The notes below the pieces were generated by a model. That model searched no databases, had not been told where the DNA came from, and was given only the letters and a program-made list of their open reading frames with translations. From a virus, in the IMG/VR virus record IMGVR_UViG_3300020119_000039, positions 1 through 42,441 of that record: a DNA stretch of 42,441 nt; one strand, 5' to 3'. Numbering within the stretch: the stretch's first letter is position 1; each line of letters begins with the position of its first letter. Below are positions 11,091 to 42,441 of this stretch, one piece after another. Made by a program: the position numbers and the translations under genes.

Positions 11091-11818
11091 ATCCACCAAA
11101 CCCTTCCTTTGATCACCACGGGCTGTAACTGGTGAGGCTGCTGTTGCTGCTGTTGGCCGCCTCCCATACCGCTCTGCTGAATCATCTGCAGATACTGCTG
11201 CGGGTTCTGCTGGAGCGAACCCAAGAAGCCGCCGCCAGAGGTTGCAGATCCGATGCCAGCGCCTCCGCCGATTCCGTGGCTCGCAGCTAGTGCGCCTTGC
11301 GCGCCTCCGCCGTAGCTAGCGCCAGCGAAGTCAGCGCTGATGTTTGCAGGAATGCCTGCAGTGCCAACGCCTCCGAATCCTACGGCTCCGTCTCCGGCTA
11401 ACGCCGCGCCGCCGCCGGCAGCTCCTCCACCTCCACCACCGCCGCCAGCAATTGCGCCACCAGATCCAGCGCCGCCCGCAGCTCCACCGCCCATGAGCGC
11501 GCCGCCGCCGAAGATCGTGCCTAGCACTGCAAGCGCGGAGTCGCCTGGCTTGTTATGCACCATGTCTTTGATCTTGCCGCCGATCTCAGTGCGATCAATC
11601 GCGCGATGGATGGGATTGATCTTCCGGTCAAACGTGTCGAACTTCGTGAGCGCCTTGCCCGCGTACTCGTTGGGATACTCCCAAGTCTTCCGCATGAAGT
11701 TGTCGTACTTGTCGCCGATCAGGTAGTGCAGGGGGTCGCCAAGCAGTCCGGCCTCACCGAACGGCGACGCGTTGTTGTCGCTCCGCGTGGCGTTATTGAA
11801 GGCGTCGAAGATGCCCAT
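11087..11818 (-). CDS. Glycine-rich virion protein, 243 aa
   Basis: The N-terminal 95 residues are an ordinary domain (MGIFDAFNNATRSDN..., LTKFDTFDRKINPIHRAIDR). They are followed by about 100 residues of glycine/alanine low complexity that could span a membrane or pack as a helix bundle, then a glutamine-rich end with seven Gln in a row near residue 222. It sits among the internal virion genes and overlaps both neighbours (TAATG, ATGA). Glycine-rich hydrophobic tracts of this sort occur in podophage ejection proteins that insert into the envelope (inference). Confidence 0.65.
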   Translation of the reverse strand: MGIFDAFNNATRSDNNASPFGEAGLLGDPLHYLIGDKYDNFMRKTWEYPNEYAGKALTKFDTFDRKINPIHRAIDRTEIGGKIKDMVHNKPGDSALAVLGTIFGGGALMGGGAAGGAGSGGAIAGGGGGGGGAAGGGAALAGDGAVGFGGVGTAGIPANISADFAGASYGGGAQGALAASHGIGGGAGIGSATSGGGFLGSLQQNPQQYLQMIQQSGMGGGQQQQQQPHQLQPVVIKGRVWWI

Positions 11819-12558
11819 TAGCCGAAGTACCCGGCGAGCGATCCGAGAATGCCGCCGTATAGGCCACCGTTGCCGCCGAAGTTCCCACCGAGTTGCGAGC
11901 CCAGCATGCCGCCGCCAAGCGCTCCGCCTAGTCTGTTCTGGCTCGTCGGCTGTGAGGTGACCTGACCATACGAGCCGCTGACGCGCTGCAGGTACTGGTC
12001 AAGGTTCTGTCCGGGCTGGTCGTACGCCGCCTGGTTCTGCTGTTGCTGCTGAGCGCCGATGCCGAGTAGCGCGTTCGAATCCGCATACTGCGACTGGTTC
12101 AACTGCGGCGACATGCCGAGCGTCGCCATCTGGTTCTGACGCTCCTGCGCGTAGTTGCCGCCATAGATCTGAGTGGCAAGGTCATTCAACTGCTGCGAAC
12201 GCAGGCCTTCAGATGCTCCTACGTTCCTACCGTGGCCTGCGAACTCAGATGCCAACTGATTCTGCGACTGCAGAGCGGCGCGATTGAACGTCTGATCAAG
12301 ATATGGGTTACTGTTCAGAAACCCGCCATTTAGCGTATTCGTGGCAAGCCCAGACGCAGCTCCGCTTAGCTGGTTGTTAGACGCGAGTCCGCGAATCTGA
12401 TTCTGCGCGTTGACCTGATCGGCAGTGAAGCCGGCAAGACCGGTGCCGCCGTTCTGGTAAATGTTCTGCGCCTGATCAGCGCCGTACTTCACAAACGGTT
12501 CTTGCCACTTGGGCAAGTTGACCGTAGTCGTGGAATTTCCGCCGCTTGAACCGCCCAT
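11818..12558 (-). CDS. Virion protein starting MGGSSGGN, 246 aa
   Basis: The N-terminus (MGGSSGGNSTTTVNLPKWQEP) followed by a Gln/Asn-rich helical body (QNIYQNGGTGLAGFTADQVN, several QQ runs) and a glycine-rich tail is a familiar type of small internal or head-tail protein in podophages. It overlaps the next gene as TAATG. The ATG directly follows the TAG stop of the upstream gene in the same frame; AGAGG six bases before the ATG gives it its own ribosome-binding site, partly inside the upstream gene. Confidence 0.65.
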   Translation of the reverse strand: MGGSSGGNSTTTVNLPKWQEPFVKYGADQAQNIYQNGGTGLAGFTADQVNAQNQIRGLASNNQLSGAASGLATNTLNGGFLNSNPYLDQTFNRAALQSQNQLASEFAGHGRNVGASEGLRSQQLNDLATQIYGGNYAQERQNQMATLGMSPQLNQSQYADSNALLGIGAQQQQQNQAAYDQPGQNLDQYLQRVSGSYGQVTSQPTSQNRLGGALGGGMLGSQLGGNFGGNGGLYGGILGSLAGYFG

Positions 12559-12957
12559 CTACAACCTCTGCTCTAAAATGATTCCGACAAACCGAAACTC
12601 TGGAAGCACTCGCTTCCAACCCTTGCGGCCGTAGATCCGCATGTACGAACAACCGACGCCCACTGCCCACATCCGAAGCCTGCCGAGTACGGCTCGCATT
12701 CCTTCGCGCGAACACGTGCCGCAAGCTGCGTAGATCTCGCAGACACGGCCCTTTGGGCTTTCGATTACTTGGGTGACGACGACGCCGCGTAACTGCTGGT
12801 CGCTGACCGACCACAGTTGCTTGTCGCCTTTCTTGCAGGCTTCGCGGATTGCCTCCGCACTCGCTACCTGCGTCTCTTTCTCAAATCTCTCGAGATGCGG
12901 GCCATAGGCTTCCCACTGCGCATCGATCTGCGCAGAGGAAAGCCAAGTGGCTTGCAT
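12559..12957 (-). CDS. Acetyltransferase-like phage protein, 132 aa
   Basis: The sequence follows the plan of a small GNAT-like protein often found beside tail genes: WSVSDQQLRGVVVTQVIESP (central strands), a helix after GMRAVLGRLRMWA, and the ending GRKGWKRVLPEFRFVGIILE. It lacks an obvious acetyl-CoA loop, so it may be a structural relative. Stop is TAG at 12559-12561, immediately followed in the same frame by the ATG of the next gene, so amber readthrough would fuse the two proteins. Confidence 0.65.
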   Translation of the reverse strand: MQATWLSSAQIDAQWEAYGPHLERFEKETQVASAEAIREACKKGDKQLWSVSDQQLRGVVVTQVIESPKGRVCEIYAACGTCSREGMRAVLGRLRMWAVGVGCSYMRIYGRKGWKRVLPEFRFVGIILEQRL

Positions 12958-24881: not shown

Positions 24882-25334
24882 TCATGAAAGCAGCCACAGT
24901 TCCTCGTCTTCCTCTTCCGCGAGTGCTAGCAGCAATCGCATCTCGGCCAACATCGACGCCGTTTCGTACGTGCGGGAGATTGCAACCATCGTTTCGATGG
25001 CTTGCGCCTCGAGCTCTGGCGACGCCTCGACATTCGGAGTCTTGATGTTGATCGGCTTGACTGCGCCCAGGCTCATCGCCTTCGGCAGTGCGCGTTCTAC
25101 GATCTCATCGGCTTTGCGTGTCGCTGCGATCTCAGCCAGCGCTTCGGCTTGCTTGAGGATCGCAAGCGCTTCCGCTTCATCGTTGGCGTGGAATACACGC
25201 CCTTCGATGCGGATTACATATGGCCGACGTCTGCGGCGGGAGCGGCCGGCGCCTTTGGCAGACGGCGTATCGACCGGCGGAGGCGTGGGGGCAGTGCCAG
25301 CCTTGTAGCCAAGCTGGATGATCCACGCGAGCAT
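24882..25334 (-). CDS. Hypothetical late protein, 150 aa
   Basis: A hydrophobic N-terminus (MLAWIIQLGYKAG), a Pro/Ala linker, an arginine cluster (RSRRRRRPYVIRIEGRVF) and then a long helix (DEAEALAILKQAEALAEIAATRKADEIV) with an acidic end. Similar small proteins occur between tail-fiber-like genes and terL in related podophages. The ATG lies nine bases after, and in the same frame as, the TAG stop of the upstream gene, and has no visible ribosome-binding site, so expression depends on reinitiation or readthrough. Not recognisable as a small terminase. Confidence 0.6.
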   Translation of the reverse strand: MLAWIIQLGYKAGTAPTPPPVDTPSAKGAGRSRRRRRPYVIRIEGRVFHANDEAEALAILKQAEALAEIAATRKADEIVERALPKAMSLGAVKPINIKTPNVEASPELEAQAIETMVAISRTYETASMLAEMRLLLALAEEEDEELWLLS

Positions 25335-25340
25335 TACTAA

Positions 25341-26510
25341 CTAGTTGTAGTAGATGTTGTAATCGACCGTCGAACCAGGACCAGTGCTGCCTGCACGAGT
25401 GGTAGTAACGGCAATACAAATAGCCGTCGAGTGCGGGATGCCGATGTCGCTCATCACGTTGGCGCCAGAAGTCGCTGGTATTCCAAGCGAATAGACAGGC
25501 GCGGTAGTTCCTAGCGTCACGCTCGCCGCAGCGGCGTTAAAGAACTGCACATAGGCAACCGAAGCATTAGGATTGTAGAAGTACCAGCCATACACCTGAC
25601 CAGCAGAACCCTTGATGTCGGTCTTCGTGGCAGCGATAGAGCCGGTCGCAGTTGTGAAACCGCCAGTCGTCGCAGGCTTCAGCGTGCTGTTAACGCTGAA
25701 CGCCGTATTGTCACTCGCGATCGTCACGCGATGACTGCCAGTGCCGGAGACGCCGTTACCCATCAGCGGCGTTACGCCATTGATCTGCGCTACGTTCACA
25801 GCGCTATTAGCGTCAGGCGTAACCAGCAGCTTGTTAGTTAGCTGCGGCTGGTCTGTCGCCAACACCACGCGTAGCGTGCCAGCGGACTTGTTACCGCTAT
25901 TCGTGTCGGTCGCGGTGCCGGCGAGCTGCGCACAATTGACAGACTGATTGGCGGGTAGAGCAACGGAATCGGGCGTGACGAGCAGCTTCGTCATGCTCGC
26001 AATGCCCTGGATCGTAATTACATCAGTCGATGCAGATCCTGCGGTACCGAGCGCCGGCTGTTTTGCCGCTGTCGCAGCGCCAGTCGGCAGCGAGACTGTG
26101 CCCGAGACGTTGGTGACGTTCCAGGTTCCAGACTGCGCAGCCTGTACGGCGAACGTACCTGCATTGTCCACGGTGAGCGAGCCCGCATTGTCTGCGACCT
26201 GCAGGGGCGTCATAGACGCAATGCCCTGTACTGAGATCACATCCGAGGACGCAGTGCCAGCGGTTCCTAAAGCAGGCTGCTTGGCCGCAGTGGACGCACC
26301 AGTGGGCAAAGATACGGTGCCGGAAACATTCGTGATGTTCCATGTGCCTTGCTGAGCAACTGGCAGGCCGTTAGACGTGCTAACAAGCGTGGCTGAGTCG
26401 AGCGCACCATAGGTTAGCTTTACGATCTGGTAATGAACGCCGCCGACATCATCTGTCGCAAGCGTCACACCATCAGCAGTACCGGCTGAGAGAACTACGT
26501 TGTCAGTCAC
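25341..26510 (-). CDS. Repeat-containing virion surface protein, 389 aa
   Basis: A Thr/Ser/Ala/Gly-rich, beta-type protein with a tandem repeat: residues 53-105 and 126-178 are about 85% identical in sequence (GTWNITNVSGTVSLPTGAST; GTWNVTNVSGTVSLPTGAAT). The C-terminal 100 residues (YGWYFYNPNASVAYVQFFNA) resemble phage head-fiber or decoration domains. GTG start adjacent to the preceding stop. It ends in TAG. The location upstream of terL with two other surface-like proteins suggests a decoration or fiber module. Confidence 0.7.
   Translation of the reverse strand: MTDNVVLSAGTADGVTLATDDVGGVHYQIVKLTYGALDSATLVSTSNGLPVAQQGTWNITNVSGTVSLPTGASTAAKQPALGTAGTASSDVISVQGIASMTPLQVADNAGSLTVDNAGTFAVQAAQSGTWNVTNVSGTVSLPTGAATAAKQPALGTAGSASTDVITIQGIASMTKLLVTPDSVALPANQSVNCAQLAGTATDTNSGNKSAGTLRVVLATDQPQLTNKLLVTPDANSAVNVAQINGVTPLMGNGVSGTGSHRVTIASDNTAFSVNSTLKPATTGGFTTATGSIAATKTDIKGSAGQVYGWYFYNPNASVAYVQFFNAAAASVTLGTTAPVYSLGIPATSGANVMSDIGIPHSTAICIAVTTTRAGSTGPGSTVDYNIYYN
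25977..26354 (-). repeat. Tandem protein repeat in the surface protein gene
   Basis: Two about-53-codon units (26354-26196 and 26135-25977) encode nearly the same peptide. Their DNA differs mostly at third codon positions, so the duplication is old and the protein sequence has been kept by selection rather than by recent copying. Confidence 0.75.
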
Positions 26511-29747: not shown

Positions 29748-31613
29748 TCAGAGTGCTCCTGAGGTGACTTTGTGGCCGCCAACCGATGGCAGCAGAGCGC
29801 CGGCGTTGACCAGCCAGTTCAAGACTTCGGGTTTGCGCTTGGACGTGATGCCCTGGCGCTTGAGTAACGCCGCGAGCTCGTCATGTGGGATGACTTCCTT
29901 GCCTGGATGGGCGGCTACCCATTCCCGCAAGGCCACCATGGCGGCTGTTTGGTTGGCGCCGCCAGCGCGCACCTTTGCGGGCTGGATGTCGCCAGAGCGA
30001 AGGATGATCGAGGTGACTGGCTTGCCGCGTTTGTCGAGGCGGCCAAGGTCGATAATCTCGCCGGCATATCCGAGCGGCGGCATGGATGGCGAATCCTTGA
30101 AACGATCTCGCGTGACGGAACATCGAAGCTCGGGCCCCTGGGGCCGCTCAACGATGTATTCGGCTTCTGTGTTGGCGCCCAGCGAGCTAGCGCCACGAGC
30201 GCGATCGGATGCCGCGTGGCCGGTATGCGCAACAATGAGGATCGTGCAGCCATAGTGCTGCTTGATCGCGACGACCAGAGATTCCAGAAATTCGGCCACC
30301 TCTGAGTTGTCGTTCTCATCGATGCCAGCGCTGAACTTGCTGAACGTGTCTAGCAGAATTGCCTTTGGCACGAACGGCAGATCGCCGATAGCTTTGTGAA
30401 GCTCGAGCAGCACGTCGGCCTGGCGCAGGGAGATGGACTTCTCCATAGCCAGAAGGTTTAGTCCGCGCAGATCAATCGCGGGGGCAAAAACGTTCTGCCA
30501 TGCCTCAATGCGGCGACCCAGCCCAGATCCTTCGGCAGACAGGATCACAACGCCCTTCGCCTCGAGCGCCATTCGCATGAACCAGTCGATGGCAATGAAC
30601 GACTTCAACGAGCCGCGACGACCAACCATGAGAGCTGTGACGTTCTCTTCGATCGTGTCCTCAATCAGCCACTCAGGCTCGCGGCGCTCCGCAACAATGT
30701 CGGCAATGTGTCGCAGAACAATGCGTGGCTCTTTCTGCTTCTCGGGCGGCTCTTGCTTCTGTGGTCCCCTATGCTTGCCACCGAACTTCTTGACGGCAGA
30801 TTCGGCCAGCGGATGAATGCGGCTACGCAGGTCAGTCCCATCGCCGTTCCGGCTGTCGCCCTTGGCCAGCAGATCCTCGAGAGCGGCGCAGATGTCGTCG
30901 TACTCCATCCCACGAGCAGCCCAGCGGGACGACAGCTTCATCATCGCGATATATCGGTCCTCGCCGCGATCGAAGGCTTCGCGCAGCTCATCATTAGTGC
31001 GCGTGTCGCGATTGATCTCATCATGCGAGGCTGGATACAGCGGCTCGATGTCGGCCGCCATGTCGATGCAGCGGCCAAGCGTCGCGCGCGTCTCGTATTC
31101 CCTGCCTTTCACTCGCCCGATGTAGAACGACTGGGATAGAGCGAAGGATTCAGTTGAGGCAATGCCGCCCAGGATGCGATTGGCACGCCCGACGTACTCG
31201 GCGCGCTTCTCAGGTAGCGCAGGCTCTGACAGCGGCAACAACACGCGCCACCGCGGCTTGTACGCGGTGTGCGAAGCGGACGTGTAGAAGACGCCCATAA
31301 TGTTCGCGCGCTGGAGGGTGGCGGCGGCTTCCGTGAGCCCGATCTTCTCTTGGTCGTAATCAAGCTCGACACCGAAACACCGCATGACATTCTCGCCATG
31401 CCTAACGTAGCCCTTGACTGAGAGCACGTTGCCGTACTCACACATTGAGATCAGGGGGCATGATTCCTTCGACGGGTATTCGCGCGCATTAGTCACACGC
31501 TTAACGAGATCGGACCAGCCAACATCTGTGCGCGGCGTCAATGACTTCGGGTACACGTCATCGAACAATGTGTAGGAAATGTAGAGTTCTTCTGGCTGCG
31601 GCTCGCTCATCAT
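29748..31613 (-). CDS. Replicative primase/helicase-type ATPase (RepA-like)
   Basis: A 621-residue replication protein. The first 200 residues (RCFGVELDYDQEKIGLTEAA, SHTAYKPRWRVLLPLSEP, ESFALSQSFYIGRV) match the N-terminal primase-polymerase-like domain common to phage and plasmid replication ATPases; the latter half is a RecA-fold helicase core with Walker A-like GRRGSLKS near residue 330, Walker B ILLDTFSKFSA near 418 and an ILIVAHTGH motif. The C-terminus is a winged-helix part. The start is the ATGATG at 31613, overlapping the HNH gene's TGA; the longer frame upstream is an artefact of that overlap. It probably unwinds the origin. Confidence 0.85.
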   Translation of the reverse strand: MMSEPQPEELYISYTLFDDVYPKSLTPRTDVGWSDLVKRVTNAREYPSKESCPLISMCEYGNVLSVKGYVRHGENVMRCFGVELDYDQEKIGLTEAAATLQRANIMGVFYTSASHTAYKPRWRVLLPLSEPALPEKRAEYVGRANRILGGIASTESFALSQSFYIGRVKGREYETRATLGRCIDMAADIEPLYPASHDEINRDTRTNDELREAFDRGEDRYIAMMKLSSRWAARGMEYDDICAALEDLLAKGDSRNGDGTDLRSRIHPLAESAVKKFGGKHRGPQKQEPPEKQKEPRIVLRHIADIVAERREPEWLIEDTIEENVTALMVGRRGSLKSFIAIDWFMRMALEAKGVVILSAEGSGLGRRIEAWQNVFAPAIDLRGLNLLAMEKSISLRQADVLLELHKAIGDLPFVPKAILLDTFSKFSAGIDENDNSEVAEFLESLVVAIKQHYGCTILIVAHTGHAASDRARGASSLGANTEAEYIVERPQGPELRCSVTRDRFKDSPSMPPLGYAGEIIDLGRLDKRGKPVTSIILRSGDIQPAKVRAGGANQTAAMVALREWVAAHPGKEVIPHDELAALLKRQGITSKRKPEVLNWLVNAGALLPSVGGHKVTSGAL

Positions 31614-32221
31614 CGGGCGCCCTTCGATGAATTGCATGAGCGGCAAAGGAGCTGGTAGTGGGCGCGGCGTGCATGGAACGCGATCCACTCCGCCTAGAGA
31701 TCGTCGTCCGCGAATCCGTCAGACATTCCCTGGATCTCTTTCAGCGCGAAGTTTCCATGGAGCTTGATGAACTCCATAGCGATGAAGTGGAACGGTGGCT
31801 TGATGTGATCGACGGTCAAATCCATCGTCGCGGCACAGAGAGCACAGCAATACGGATCGGCGGATTCTTTGAAGTCGCGCAGGTCGCCGCGAATGCTTTG
31901 ACGCAGGGCCAGCAGTCGCTTCTGCAATGCGCGCCGCGCTTCAGCTTCCGGGCCTGGTTTCGGGCCGTACTTAATTGCCTTCCGCCACGACCATTGCTGC
32001 GGTTCGTGCCAATCGAACGCGAGCACATGCAGATGCCGCGTGTCATTCGGGAATTCTGGATTGCGTCTGCGGTATGCCTCGGACAATTCGGTGCCCGTGA
32101 TATCACTCAGCACCTTCAGATCCTCAGCAGTGAACGGCTCGTCAATGGCGTACTTGTCGATGATCGCGCGAGCAATCGCCAACTTGGCTTTCTGTGTTAG
32201 CGGTTTCGGCTCCTTAGACAT
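31610..32221 (-). pseudogene. HNH endonuclease interrupted by an in-frame TAG
   Basis: Codons 1-175 encode an HNH protein through CALC (126-129) and TVDHIKPPFHF (D138, H139). TAG follows at 31694-31696. Beyond it the same frame continues AEWIAFHARRAHYQLLCRSCNSSKGAR, then TGA at 31610-31612. That continuation supplies exactly the missing part of the HNH fold: the second CxxC (193-196) and N197. It ends overlapping the helicase ATG. Without the TAG the protein has 203 residues. The TAG therefore truncates the zinc site and active site, unless read through. A CAG-to-TAG transition would explain it. Confidence 0.85.
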
Positions 32222-32222
32222 T

Positions 32223-32702
32223 TCAGCCTGCCTTTTCCTTCCATCTATTCACCAACTCATCTGCCTCGCCTGCATTTCGAGCAATGCCGGCAATTCCGCC
32301 AGCATCACGCACCTTCTCTATGAATCGCTGCTGCTCCTCGCTCACGACTCCTTCCGGCGCCTTTGCCTCGATGCATGTCAGAACCGCAATGCGTCGTCCT
32401 ACCATTGACGACGTAACGACGACGCTAGTTAGCCCAACAAAATCAGAGCTTCCAACGCATAAGCCATAGCGCAGCCAGCGGCCTGGGCGCCACTCGAGCG
32501 CCCCAACGTTATTCCGCCAGAGCGTTAGGTCACCTCGAGCGCTGGCCCATTCGCGGATCAGCTTCATCACTTCTTGTTCTGGCGCGCGCTGCTTTGCTCG
32601 CGGTTTTTTCTCGGCCGCCTGTTCCATAACAGTTGAGCCGCCCATGAATGCGAGGCGATTCGCGATATCTCGCCTGGACGGCCTTGTGGGAAAGCGCCTC
32701 AT
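32223..32702 (-). CDS. VRR-NUC domain nuclease
   Basis: A 159-residue protein. The region EVMKLIREWASARGDLTLWR, DFVGLTSVVVTSSM, CIEAKAPEGVVSEEQQRFIE and the end AGGIAGIARNAGEADELV match the VRR-NUC PD-(D/E)XK-type domain (acidic residue, E-A-K, Q). VRR-NUC proteins are stand-alone nucleases that cut branched DNA in phages. The start at 32702 is chosen because it overlaps the small membrane gene stop as ATGA; a longer frame is an artefact. It is co-transcribed with the helicase. Confidence 0.85.
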   Translation of the reverse strand: MRRFPTRPSRRDIANRLAFMGGSTVMEQAAEKKPRAKQRAPEQEVMKLIREWASARGDLTLWRNNVGALEWRPGRWLRYGLCVGSSDFVGLTSVVVTSSMVGRRIAVLTCIEAKAPEGVVSEEQQRFIEKVRDAGGIAGIARNAGEADELVNRWKEKAG

Positions 32703-33623: not shown

Positions 33624-34088
33624 TCATAGGAGCAGCCCAAGGATCTTGTTAGTGGCAGCAAACTCGCCGAATAGATCGGTAGCTAACTTGTCATATGCAA
33701 GCGCGGCTTCTTGCGGGTATTTATATTTCTCTGATCTGTAAACCTTGTATTGACATGTAATTTCTGCGCGCCAGCGATTTCCGTACTTGAAGACACCCTT
33801 GAATCCACTGGCGGCTTTTACAACGCGCCTATTTGCGCCCTGCTGAGATTGGGTCGCAAAACGTAGATTGGAGCGCTGGTTGTCAAGCCCGCTGCCATTG
33901 ATATGGTCAACGCCCCTCCCGCCCATAAGCACGTTGTGCATGAGCCGTGTCTGGCTGCCAAAGTGACGCTCCGCATAGACCTTGCCGCCAGATCCTTTGC
34001 GGACATACCAACCAGATTTGGGCAGCGACTCATAATCTTCGTCGTCAACTAACGTCTCGTAGCCCTGTGAGAGTTCGATGACCTTCAT
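33624..34088 (-). CDS. HNH endonuclease with AP2-like DNA-binding domain
   Basis: A 154-residue free-standing homing-type endonuclease. The HNH part reads RLMHNVLMGG, VDHINGSGLDNQRSNLRFAT (residues about 49-80), and the C-terminal part SGFKGVFKYGNRWRAEITCQ, AALAYDKLATDLFG matches an AP2/ERF DNA-binding domain, the common partner in phage homing endonucleases. Such genes spread by cutting related phage DNA. The ribosome-binding site GGAAGAG precedes the ATG. Complete. Confidence 0.88.
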   Translation of the reverse strand: MKVIELSQGYETLVDDEDYESLPKSGWYVRKGSGGKVYAERHFGSQTRLMHNVLMGGRGVDHINGSGLDNQRSNLRFATQSQQGANRRVVKAASGFKGVFKYGNRWRAEITCQYKVYRSEKYKYPQEAALAYDKLATDLFGEFAATNKILGLLL

Positions 34089-36999: not shown

Positions 37000-37244
37000 T
37001 CTACAACACCCCCATCGCGAACGGCCGCGAGTACACGAGCGCCGAATGGCTTCGCGCAATGATCGAAATCGAGGTGGAAGGCTATGCGCCTAACGAGATG
37101 CTATCGGTGGTTCCTTTTACGGCTGCGCTTTCGACTCTCCTGCTGGTCGAGGCGGGTGCATCGAAGACGACTCCAGCGCTGGACAACCTTCAAGCCGACG
37201 CCCGACATTTTCCAGCGGGCGCGGGAGCGGAGGTACTAGCGTGA
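36996..37244 (+). CDS. Hypothetical early protein, 82 aa
   Basis: GTG at 36996 overlaps the preceding stop as GTGA. The protein (IYNTPIANGREYTSAEWLRA, MLSVVPFTAALSTLLLVEAG) has one hydrophobic helix in the middle and a polar end. No family recognised. Confidence 0.5.
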   Translation: MIYNTPIANGREYTSAEWLRAMIEIEVEGYAPNEMLSVVPFTAALSTLLLVEAGASKTTPALDNLQADARHFPAGAGAEVLA

Positions 37245-37543
37245 GACGTCGTCGCAAAAGCTACGTGCAAATCATGGCGCTGGACAGGCAGCACAAGAAC
37301 ACGCTGCGCAAGATGCAGGCTAACCAGTGCTGTTGGTGCGGTAAGCCTATGCAGGCGAAAAAGTCCTGGCAGTGGGATTACGAAACGATTGAGCACCTGA
37401 TGCCGCTCTCCAAAGGCGGCTCACATGAAATGTCCAATCTCGCCTTGGCACACAAGAAGTGCAACCAAGAGCGTGGCATAGAGGATCGCGAACCCCTGCT
37501 TAGGCGCGTAGCTAGGCGCTTTACCAACGAGCAGCAGCCATGA
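37241..37543 (+). CDS. HNH nuclease, 100 aa
   Basis: A complete small HNH protein: CCWCGKPM at residues 27-34 gives the first metal-binding CxxC, EHLMPLSKGGSHEMSNLALA the catalytic E/H-N region, and HKKCNQERG the end. GTG start overlaps the preceding stop. Small HNH proteins like this can nick DNA or act with packaging. It belongs to a set of several HNH-type genes in this genome. Confidence 0.85.
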   Translation: MRRRRKSYVQIMALDRQHKNTLRKMQANQCCWCGKPMQAKKSWQWDYETIEHLMPLSKGGSHEMSNLALAHKKCNQERGIEDREPLLRRVARRFTNEQQP

Positions 37544-42084: not shown

Positions 42085-42441
42085 CCCACACCCCAACGGA
42101 GACCCCAATGACCAAACTACGCGTCGGCCTCACCGCCATCCTCATCACCTGCGCCCTGATGTACGCAGCGACGGCGTTCGCGCAAGTACCGCTCGATCCG
42201 ACGCAGAGCGGCGCGTATCCACCCTACCCCGCCTACCTTACCGTCTCCTGCGGCGGCGTGAAGCTCTCGGTTCTCGAAGAAAGCGGCAACGTCGCGATGG
42301 TGTCGGCGACCACTAACTGCAACGGCTCGGGGCGCGGCGCGAAGGTCAAACACTATCTTGCGTGCTGGCGGGTGACGATCGCGGATGACCGCTACTACAT
42401 CCTCAACCGCGAGCTGGCGCTTTACGCCACGTGGCTGACGG
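42081..42441 (+). CDS. Secreted small protein, N-terminal part (continues at base 1)
   Basis: ATG at 42081 follows AAAGGAG at ideal spacing; an in-frame ATG at 42108 is also preceded by GGAG and begins directly with the signal sequence TKLRVGLTAILITCALMYAA, cleavage after AFA. The frame runs off the window and continues at base 1 to TGA at 157-159 once the 127-bp overlap is removed (130 residues from 42081, 121 from 42108). The mature protein is about 97 residues with four cysteines (SCGG, NCNG, ACWR, VCPT). A secreted early protein may alter the envelope; family unknown. Confidence 0.8.
   Translation, partial: MTHTPTETPMTKLRVGLTAILITCALMYAATAFAQVPLDPTQSGAYPPYPAYLTVSCGGVKLSVLEESGNVAMVSATTNCNGSGRGAKVKHYLACWRVTIADDRYYILNRELALYATWLT
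42315..42441. repeat. Right copy of the 127-bp exact terminal repeat
   Basis: Identical to bases 1-127. The junction gene proves that the copies are the same position on a closed molecule; removing one gives a 42,314-bp unit. Confidence 0.97.

Follow-up and report, generated by a model that had tools for sequence, protein, structure and literature searches.

A probable recent amber nonsense allele in an optional, replication-linked phage HNH endonuclease gene

The HNH gene that precedes the replicative helicase in a viral DNA of 42,441 nt (IMG/VR record IMGVR_UViG_3300020119_000039, taken at its full length and referred to here as the window) is broken by a single in-frame TAG, and we consider it probable that the nonsense change is recent and that the gene it struck is an optional one linked to replication. 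On this account, the ancestral locus would have been an HNH (His-Me finger) endonuclease gene of ~203 codons within a phage replication module, in which a single sense-to-amber change struck the non-conserved codon 176. The product would then be a 175-residue protein without the second zinc dyad, the W..[FY]H element, the Asn/Lys-Gly residues, as well as the strand and helix that end the predicted core, a loss that the phage would tolerate because the HNH gene is apparently optional in its module. An initial reading, made from the nucleotide sequence alone, had proposed either a recent nonsense allele or amber read-through; the evidence assembled here favors the former, since the relatives are intact and TAG stops translation elsewhere in this genome. 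The TAG allele would then be both real and fixed. The window itself carries an exact 127-bp terminal direct repeat (1-127 and 42315-42441), a length typical of assembler k-mers, and is probably a complete circular assembly.

The features of the locus are as follows.
29748-31613, minus strand: replicative helicase (AAA_25, RepA-like), 621 aa from the ATG at 31613.
31610-31693, minus strand: continuation of the HNH frame past the TAG, 27 codons and a TGA, which matches PF01844 on its own.
31631-31645, minus strand: second zinc dyad C193-x-x-C196 followed by N197, with C193, C196, and N197 invariant in the family.
31694-31696, minus strand: in-frame TAG at codon 176, an amino-acid codon at the same column in all relatives.
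31694-32221, minus strand: HNH open reading frame up to the TAG, 175 aa and the stop, with the N-terminal domain, the first CxxC, and the Asp-His pair; it aligns to residues 1-175 of the relatives.
31805-31810, minus strand: catalytic-type Asp138-His139, invariant in the family alignments.
31835-31846, minus strand: first zinc dyad C126-x-x-C129, invariant in the family alignments.
32223-32627, minus strand: VRR-NUC endonuclease gene adjoining the HNH gene on its upstream side (PF08774, E 2.7e-10; phrog_93), its start assigned by eye.

The HNH frame opens with the ATG at 32221 and runs for 175 codons (32221-31697) before meeting the TAG, after which it reads AEWIAFHARRAHYQLLCRSCNSSKGAR and closes with a TGA (31612-31610) that overlaps the helicase ATGs at 31613 and 31610. 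The coordinates and frame first assigned to this gene are therefore exact, the gene lying on the minus strand, and a single TAG within an HNH frame that continues to the helicase ATG is confirmed from the sequence. The accompanying claim that all catalytic parts lie beyond the TAG holds for the second CxxC and the Asn, which are found there in the arrangement C-x-x-C-N-x-x-K-G together with W..[FY]H (W..FH in the window), but not for the catalytic Asp-His and the first CxxC, which precede the stop. The zinc-dyad HNH motif (C126/C129, D138-H139, C193/C196, N197, K200) is complete only if the TAG is read through; the 175-aa product, lacking the second dyad, does not qualify as a zinc-dyad HNH protein, and a gene caller would here deliver a 175-aa open reading frame without a recognizable nuclease motif.

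That the HNH frame continues past the TAG is more than chance. The 27 post-TAG residues match the PF01844 HNH profile by themselves with an E value of 0.015, which is weak in isolation. When the two halves are joined across the TAG the E value becomes 0.0023, while the pre-TAG part alone gives no PF01844 match; for phrog_7785 the corresponding values are 0.00096 for the joined protein and 0.039 for the pre-TAG part, again weak in isolation. The joined protein still falls short of the curated PF01844 cut-off (18.5 vs 21.4 bits). By composition, the probability of finding the eight family-invariant residues of this stretch at their fixed spacing is about 2e-12, and the early argument that a random downstream frame would not supply the missing zinc site is upheld by this figure and by relatives that align across the TAG, the latter being the decisive evidence.

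These relatives were found with a degenerate DNA pattern based solely on residues of the post-TAG motif (W, H, A, LC, CN, KG) and run over 2.9 million viral contigs. Because the pattern is silent on codon 176, interrupted copies would have been found equally. It matched 63 contigs, representing 48 distinct proteins, all of them uninterrupted across the codon-176 point (63/63, with L070 cut by the contig end) and none with a stop at that codon (0/63). The uninterrupted homologues of ~203 residues envisaged by the sequence-only reading thus exist; they align with the window protein, nearly all over the full length and mostly at 30-54% identity, none ends near residue 175, and the residues that follow the TAG in the window are those of a canonical HNH C-terminus. 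Gp123 of Synechococcus phage S-CBWM1 likewise aligns across the TAG position. Other routes to relatives were less productive: standard searches among viral contigs, phage records, and plasmids turned up no close relatives (a single weak match among the plasmids), and peptide-pattern scans with single HNH and helicase proteins gave no matches because the chosen peptides are not conserved.

Codon 176 itself is variable, the 48 proteins having Glu (GAG/GAA) in 23 cases, Leu in 11, and Phe in six, with Ala, Lys, and others also seen. All four of the nearest relatives (L063, L042, L044, and L039) have Glu here, and Glu is most likely the ancestral residue. Alignments of 32 and 43 sequences define 16 invariant columns, every one of which is kept in the window, and eight of these (W179, H183, A187, C193, C196, N197, K200, and G201) lie beyond the TAG. 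With the relatives uninterrupted and all 16 columns kept, comparison across the family indicates that the natural, ancestral gene is one of ~203 codons and that the TAG is derived.

The post-TAG stretch has no visible decay that could be dated to the time since the TAG arose. Between the window and its dozen best matches, identity over this stretch is 74-89%, as compared with 61 +/- 9% among intact relatives of comparable N-terminal divergence. Against L063, 24 of the 27 residues are identical, and the codon differences over these 27 codons comprise 13 synonymous and three non-synonymous changes. Such a pattern suggests either that the TAG is young compared with the divergence from the known relatives or that the stretch is still translated. 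The two marks of a nonsense allele, relatives intact across the stop and an undecayed sequence downstream of it, are both found here; a preserved downstream stretch is also what functional read-through predicts, and in this respect counts against a nonsense allele.

An AlphaFold (AF2) model of the read-through protein, built with the TAG as Gln for modeling and with the 43-sequence alignment, has a mean pLDDT of 92.2. In this model codon 176 sits within a helix spanning residues 173-186, and the second dyad and the Asn lie beyond the TAG, on strand 189-193 and helix 194-202; the predicted core elements are this strand and helix together with the strand 135-139. A fold search of the PDB with the read-through model returned nothing significant (no matches at E <= 0.001), and the PDB sequence matches, a cytochrome trimer and two weak ones, were judged spurious. 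The best viral fold matches, in BFVD, are S-CBWM1 gp123 (ATW62807.1, E 1.9e-10), H6WFX8 of cyanophage S-TIM5 (E 1.1e-6), and an uncultured Caudovirales protein. With half of the zinc site gone, the 175-residue product is most likely inactive.

The surroundings of the gene bear on how its loss could be borne. By its 16 invariant columns and its place upstream of a helicase/primase gene, the window gene belongs to the same family as its relatives. The HNH gene is followed immediately by a helicase related to that of the window in 25 of the 63 contigs; elsewhere the next large gene encodes a helicase or primase of some other type (VapE/Prim-Pol, SNF2, DEAD/ResIII, or AAA_25 with primase domains) or else a nuclease. 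The helicase start overlaps the original HNH TGA by 4 nt in the window, and the HNH stop likewise in all 11 relatives inspected, an arrangement that suggests translational coupling, so that helicase translation might fall when termination shifts 84 nt upstream. When the helicase served as the query instead, 60 loci were recovered, 57 of which have enough upstream sequence to be read, and the slot upstream holds an intact HNH gene in 25, none within the available sequence in 32, and a broken one in no case, counts that include near-identical contigs and are hence not independent. All 25 of these HNH genes are uninterrupted with the full motif. From these presences and absences the HNH gene looks to be an optional member of the replication module. 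In HNH-less loci (L119, L120, L124, L126-L129, and others) the slot before the helicase is often taken by a small Cro/CI-like helix-turn-helix open reading frame that ends in ...VEAATGVSRKALRPDIYP.

The main rival to a nonsense allele is a wrong base introduced in sequencing or assembly, or a minor allele captured in the consensus, with the phage population encoding an intact HNH protein. The window is a metagenomic contig with a terminal repeat of 127 bp that resembles a k-mer overlap, the TAG is one base from GAG, the commonest codon of the relatives at this position, and no relative has a stop there. On the other side, it is the sole such lesion recognized among the 65 genes read, and consensus substitution errors are rare in assembled contigs; we regard an error or minor allele as unlikely.

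A second alternative is that the TAG is read through, by a host suppressor tRNA, by a programmed mechanism, or by basal leakiness, yielding trace full-length HNH protein in a limited dose. The fully conserved post-TAG codons, with their excess of synonymous over non-synonymous differences to L063, are consistent with this, and read-through would be the sole route to the C-terminus, as no ATG, GTG, or TTG is seen by eye in frame after the TAG, which rules out separate initiation of the C-terminal piece. The conservation is, however, equally explained by the recency of the TAG; a search for tRNA genes in the window, suppressors included, found none; the RNA around the TAG folds no better than shuffled sequences do (z 0.11 and 0.53); and TAG is absent from codon 176 in all relatives. 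A programmed mechanism, for which one would look to a stop conserved in relatives and a local RNA signal, finds neither here and is rejected, and we think read-through of any kind quite improbable.

A more elaborate version would make the amber functional. Host read-through could then give trace HNH protein and, with termination shifted away from the helicase start, tune both nuclease dose and helicase expression, a proposal that we hold to be very unlikely. A GTG at 31686-31688, in the helicase frame and starting 5 nt after the TAG, would open a 646-aa frame for an N-extended helicase; restart at this GTG is possible in principle, and no support for it was found.

It is highly implausible that the 175-residue form is natural and selected, for example as a non-cutting DNA-binding regulator, the downstream similarity being residual. 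The N-terminal 118 residues do form a conserved region (S78, W79, and R107 invariant) that is intact in the window, but no relative stops near residue 175, and in the AF2 model truncation there splits a helix and the zinc site and follows no domain boundary.

An alternative code in which TAG is sense, leaving the gene uninterrupted, would account for a frame open across the TAG and is effectively untenable. In code-15 phages, TAG occurs within numerous genes and suppressor tRNAs are also encoded (PMC9523058, PMC10607447). Of the 65 window genes that were read, 45 stop with TGA, 14 with TAA, and six with TAG, and one of these TAGs, at the end of a 389-aa gene (26510-25341), is verified as a terminator in this lineage by relatives that stop at the identical residue, using TGA or TAG. 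A TAG that does not terminate, many in-frame TAGs, and a suppressor tRNA, the marks of code 15, are not found, a single gene being affected, and genome-wide TAG recoding is rejected. In the TAG-terminated genes within 11818-12957 and 24882-26510 the next gene follows in the same frame; by comparison with relatives, the TAG in 24882-26510 is a true stop.

Returning to a recent nonsense allele, the lesion itself would be ordinary, as phage nuclease genes of this optional kind are often lost. Precedents for the decay of phage HNH genes include T5 hegG/hegJ, T4 mobA, and those of the Xanthomonas phages Xp10/OP1/Xop411 (PMC2248197). Like the family described here, these freestanding HNH genes are present in some relatives and absent or broken in others; the T5 and Xanthomonas genes, however, decay by insertion, deletion, or domain loss (PMC2248197), whereas the window gene has one nonsense codon and nothing further. 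The TAG-recoded phages (code 15, crAss-like) share with the window an in-frame TAG within coding sequence, and differ in that many of their genes are affected and suppressor tRNAs are present (PMC9523058), while the window has one such gene and TAG still terminates others. The window thus offers what would be a clean case of a gene newly broken, from a family whose members are otherwise seen as intact or absent at the helicase slot.

This replication-linked HNH family is little described. Its metagenomic members (L039-L101) share with the window protein full-length similarity, the 16 invariant residues, the HNH-helicase order, and the 4-nt overlap, and differ from it in being uninterrupted where the window has its TAG. 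Among 32 aligned members, 28 match phrog_4234 (best E 1.5e-7), and weak Pfam matches are found to PF01844 HNH in 20 and to PF02945 Endonuclease_7 in 10; NCBIfam gave no match for the window protein. The zinc-dyad motif is common to the window protein and these two Pfam families, unlike which it has a long insert between the Asp-His and the second dyad and a large N-terminal domain. The fold matches S-CBWM1 gp123 and S-TIM5 H6WFX8 are only about 20-27% identical to it, and gp123 lacks a canonical second Cys dyad (CASAN in its place). Searches with the window protein and two family members found no match, at the limits used, in 50,697 annotated phage records, and the HNH motif pattern found none in 84,980 genomes. 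An alignment search of cellular genomes returned six partial generic HNH proteins and one full-length match at 29% identity (L111:3878-4561), which lies beside a urease gene in a Paracoccaceae single-cell genome; the 8.5 kb of this contig that was examined contains no phage replication gene of the kind present in the window.

In one relative (L080:2-2851) a family A DNA polymerase (PF00476, E 2.1e-13) bears the HNH domain at its C-terminus, fused through a Lys/Glu/Ala-rich linker, and in another (L059) a polymerase-like open reading frame lies just upstream and ends beside the HNH start. An HNH family found beside unrelated helicases and primases, with one polymerase A fusion, suggests a general role in phage replication or recombination; given this company and the weak similarity to Endonuclease VII, the probable task of the intact enzyme is to nick or resolve DNA in replication or recombination.

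The window is a mosaic. Its terminase-based relatives (31 loci) share the structural module and have neither this HNH gene nor this helicase, which indicates that the structural genes belong with different phages than does the replication module. Two further HNH-type genes, at 33624-34088 and 37241-37543 (HNH_3 and PF01844), fall outside this HNH family.
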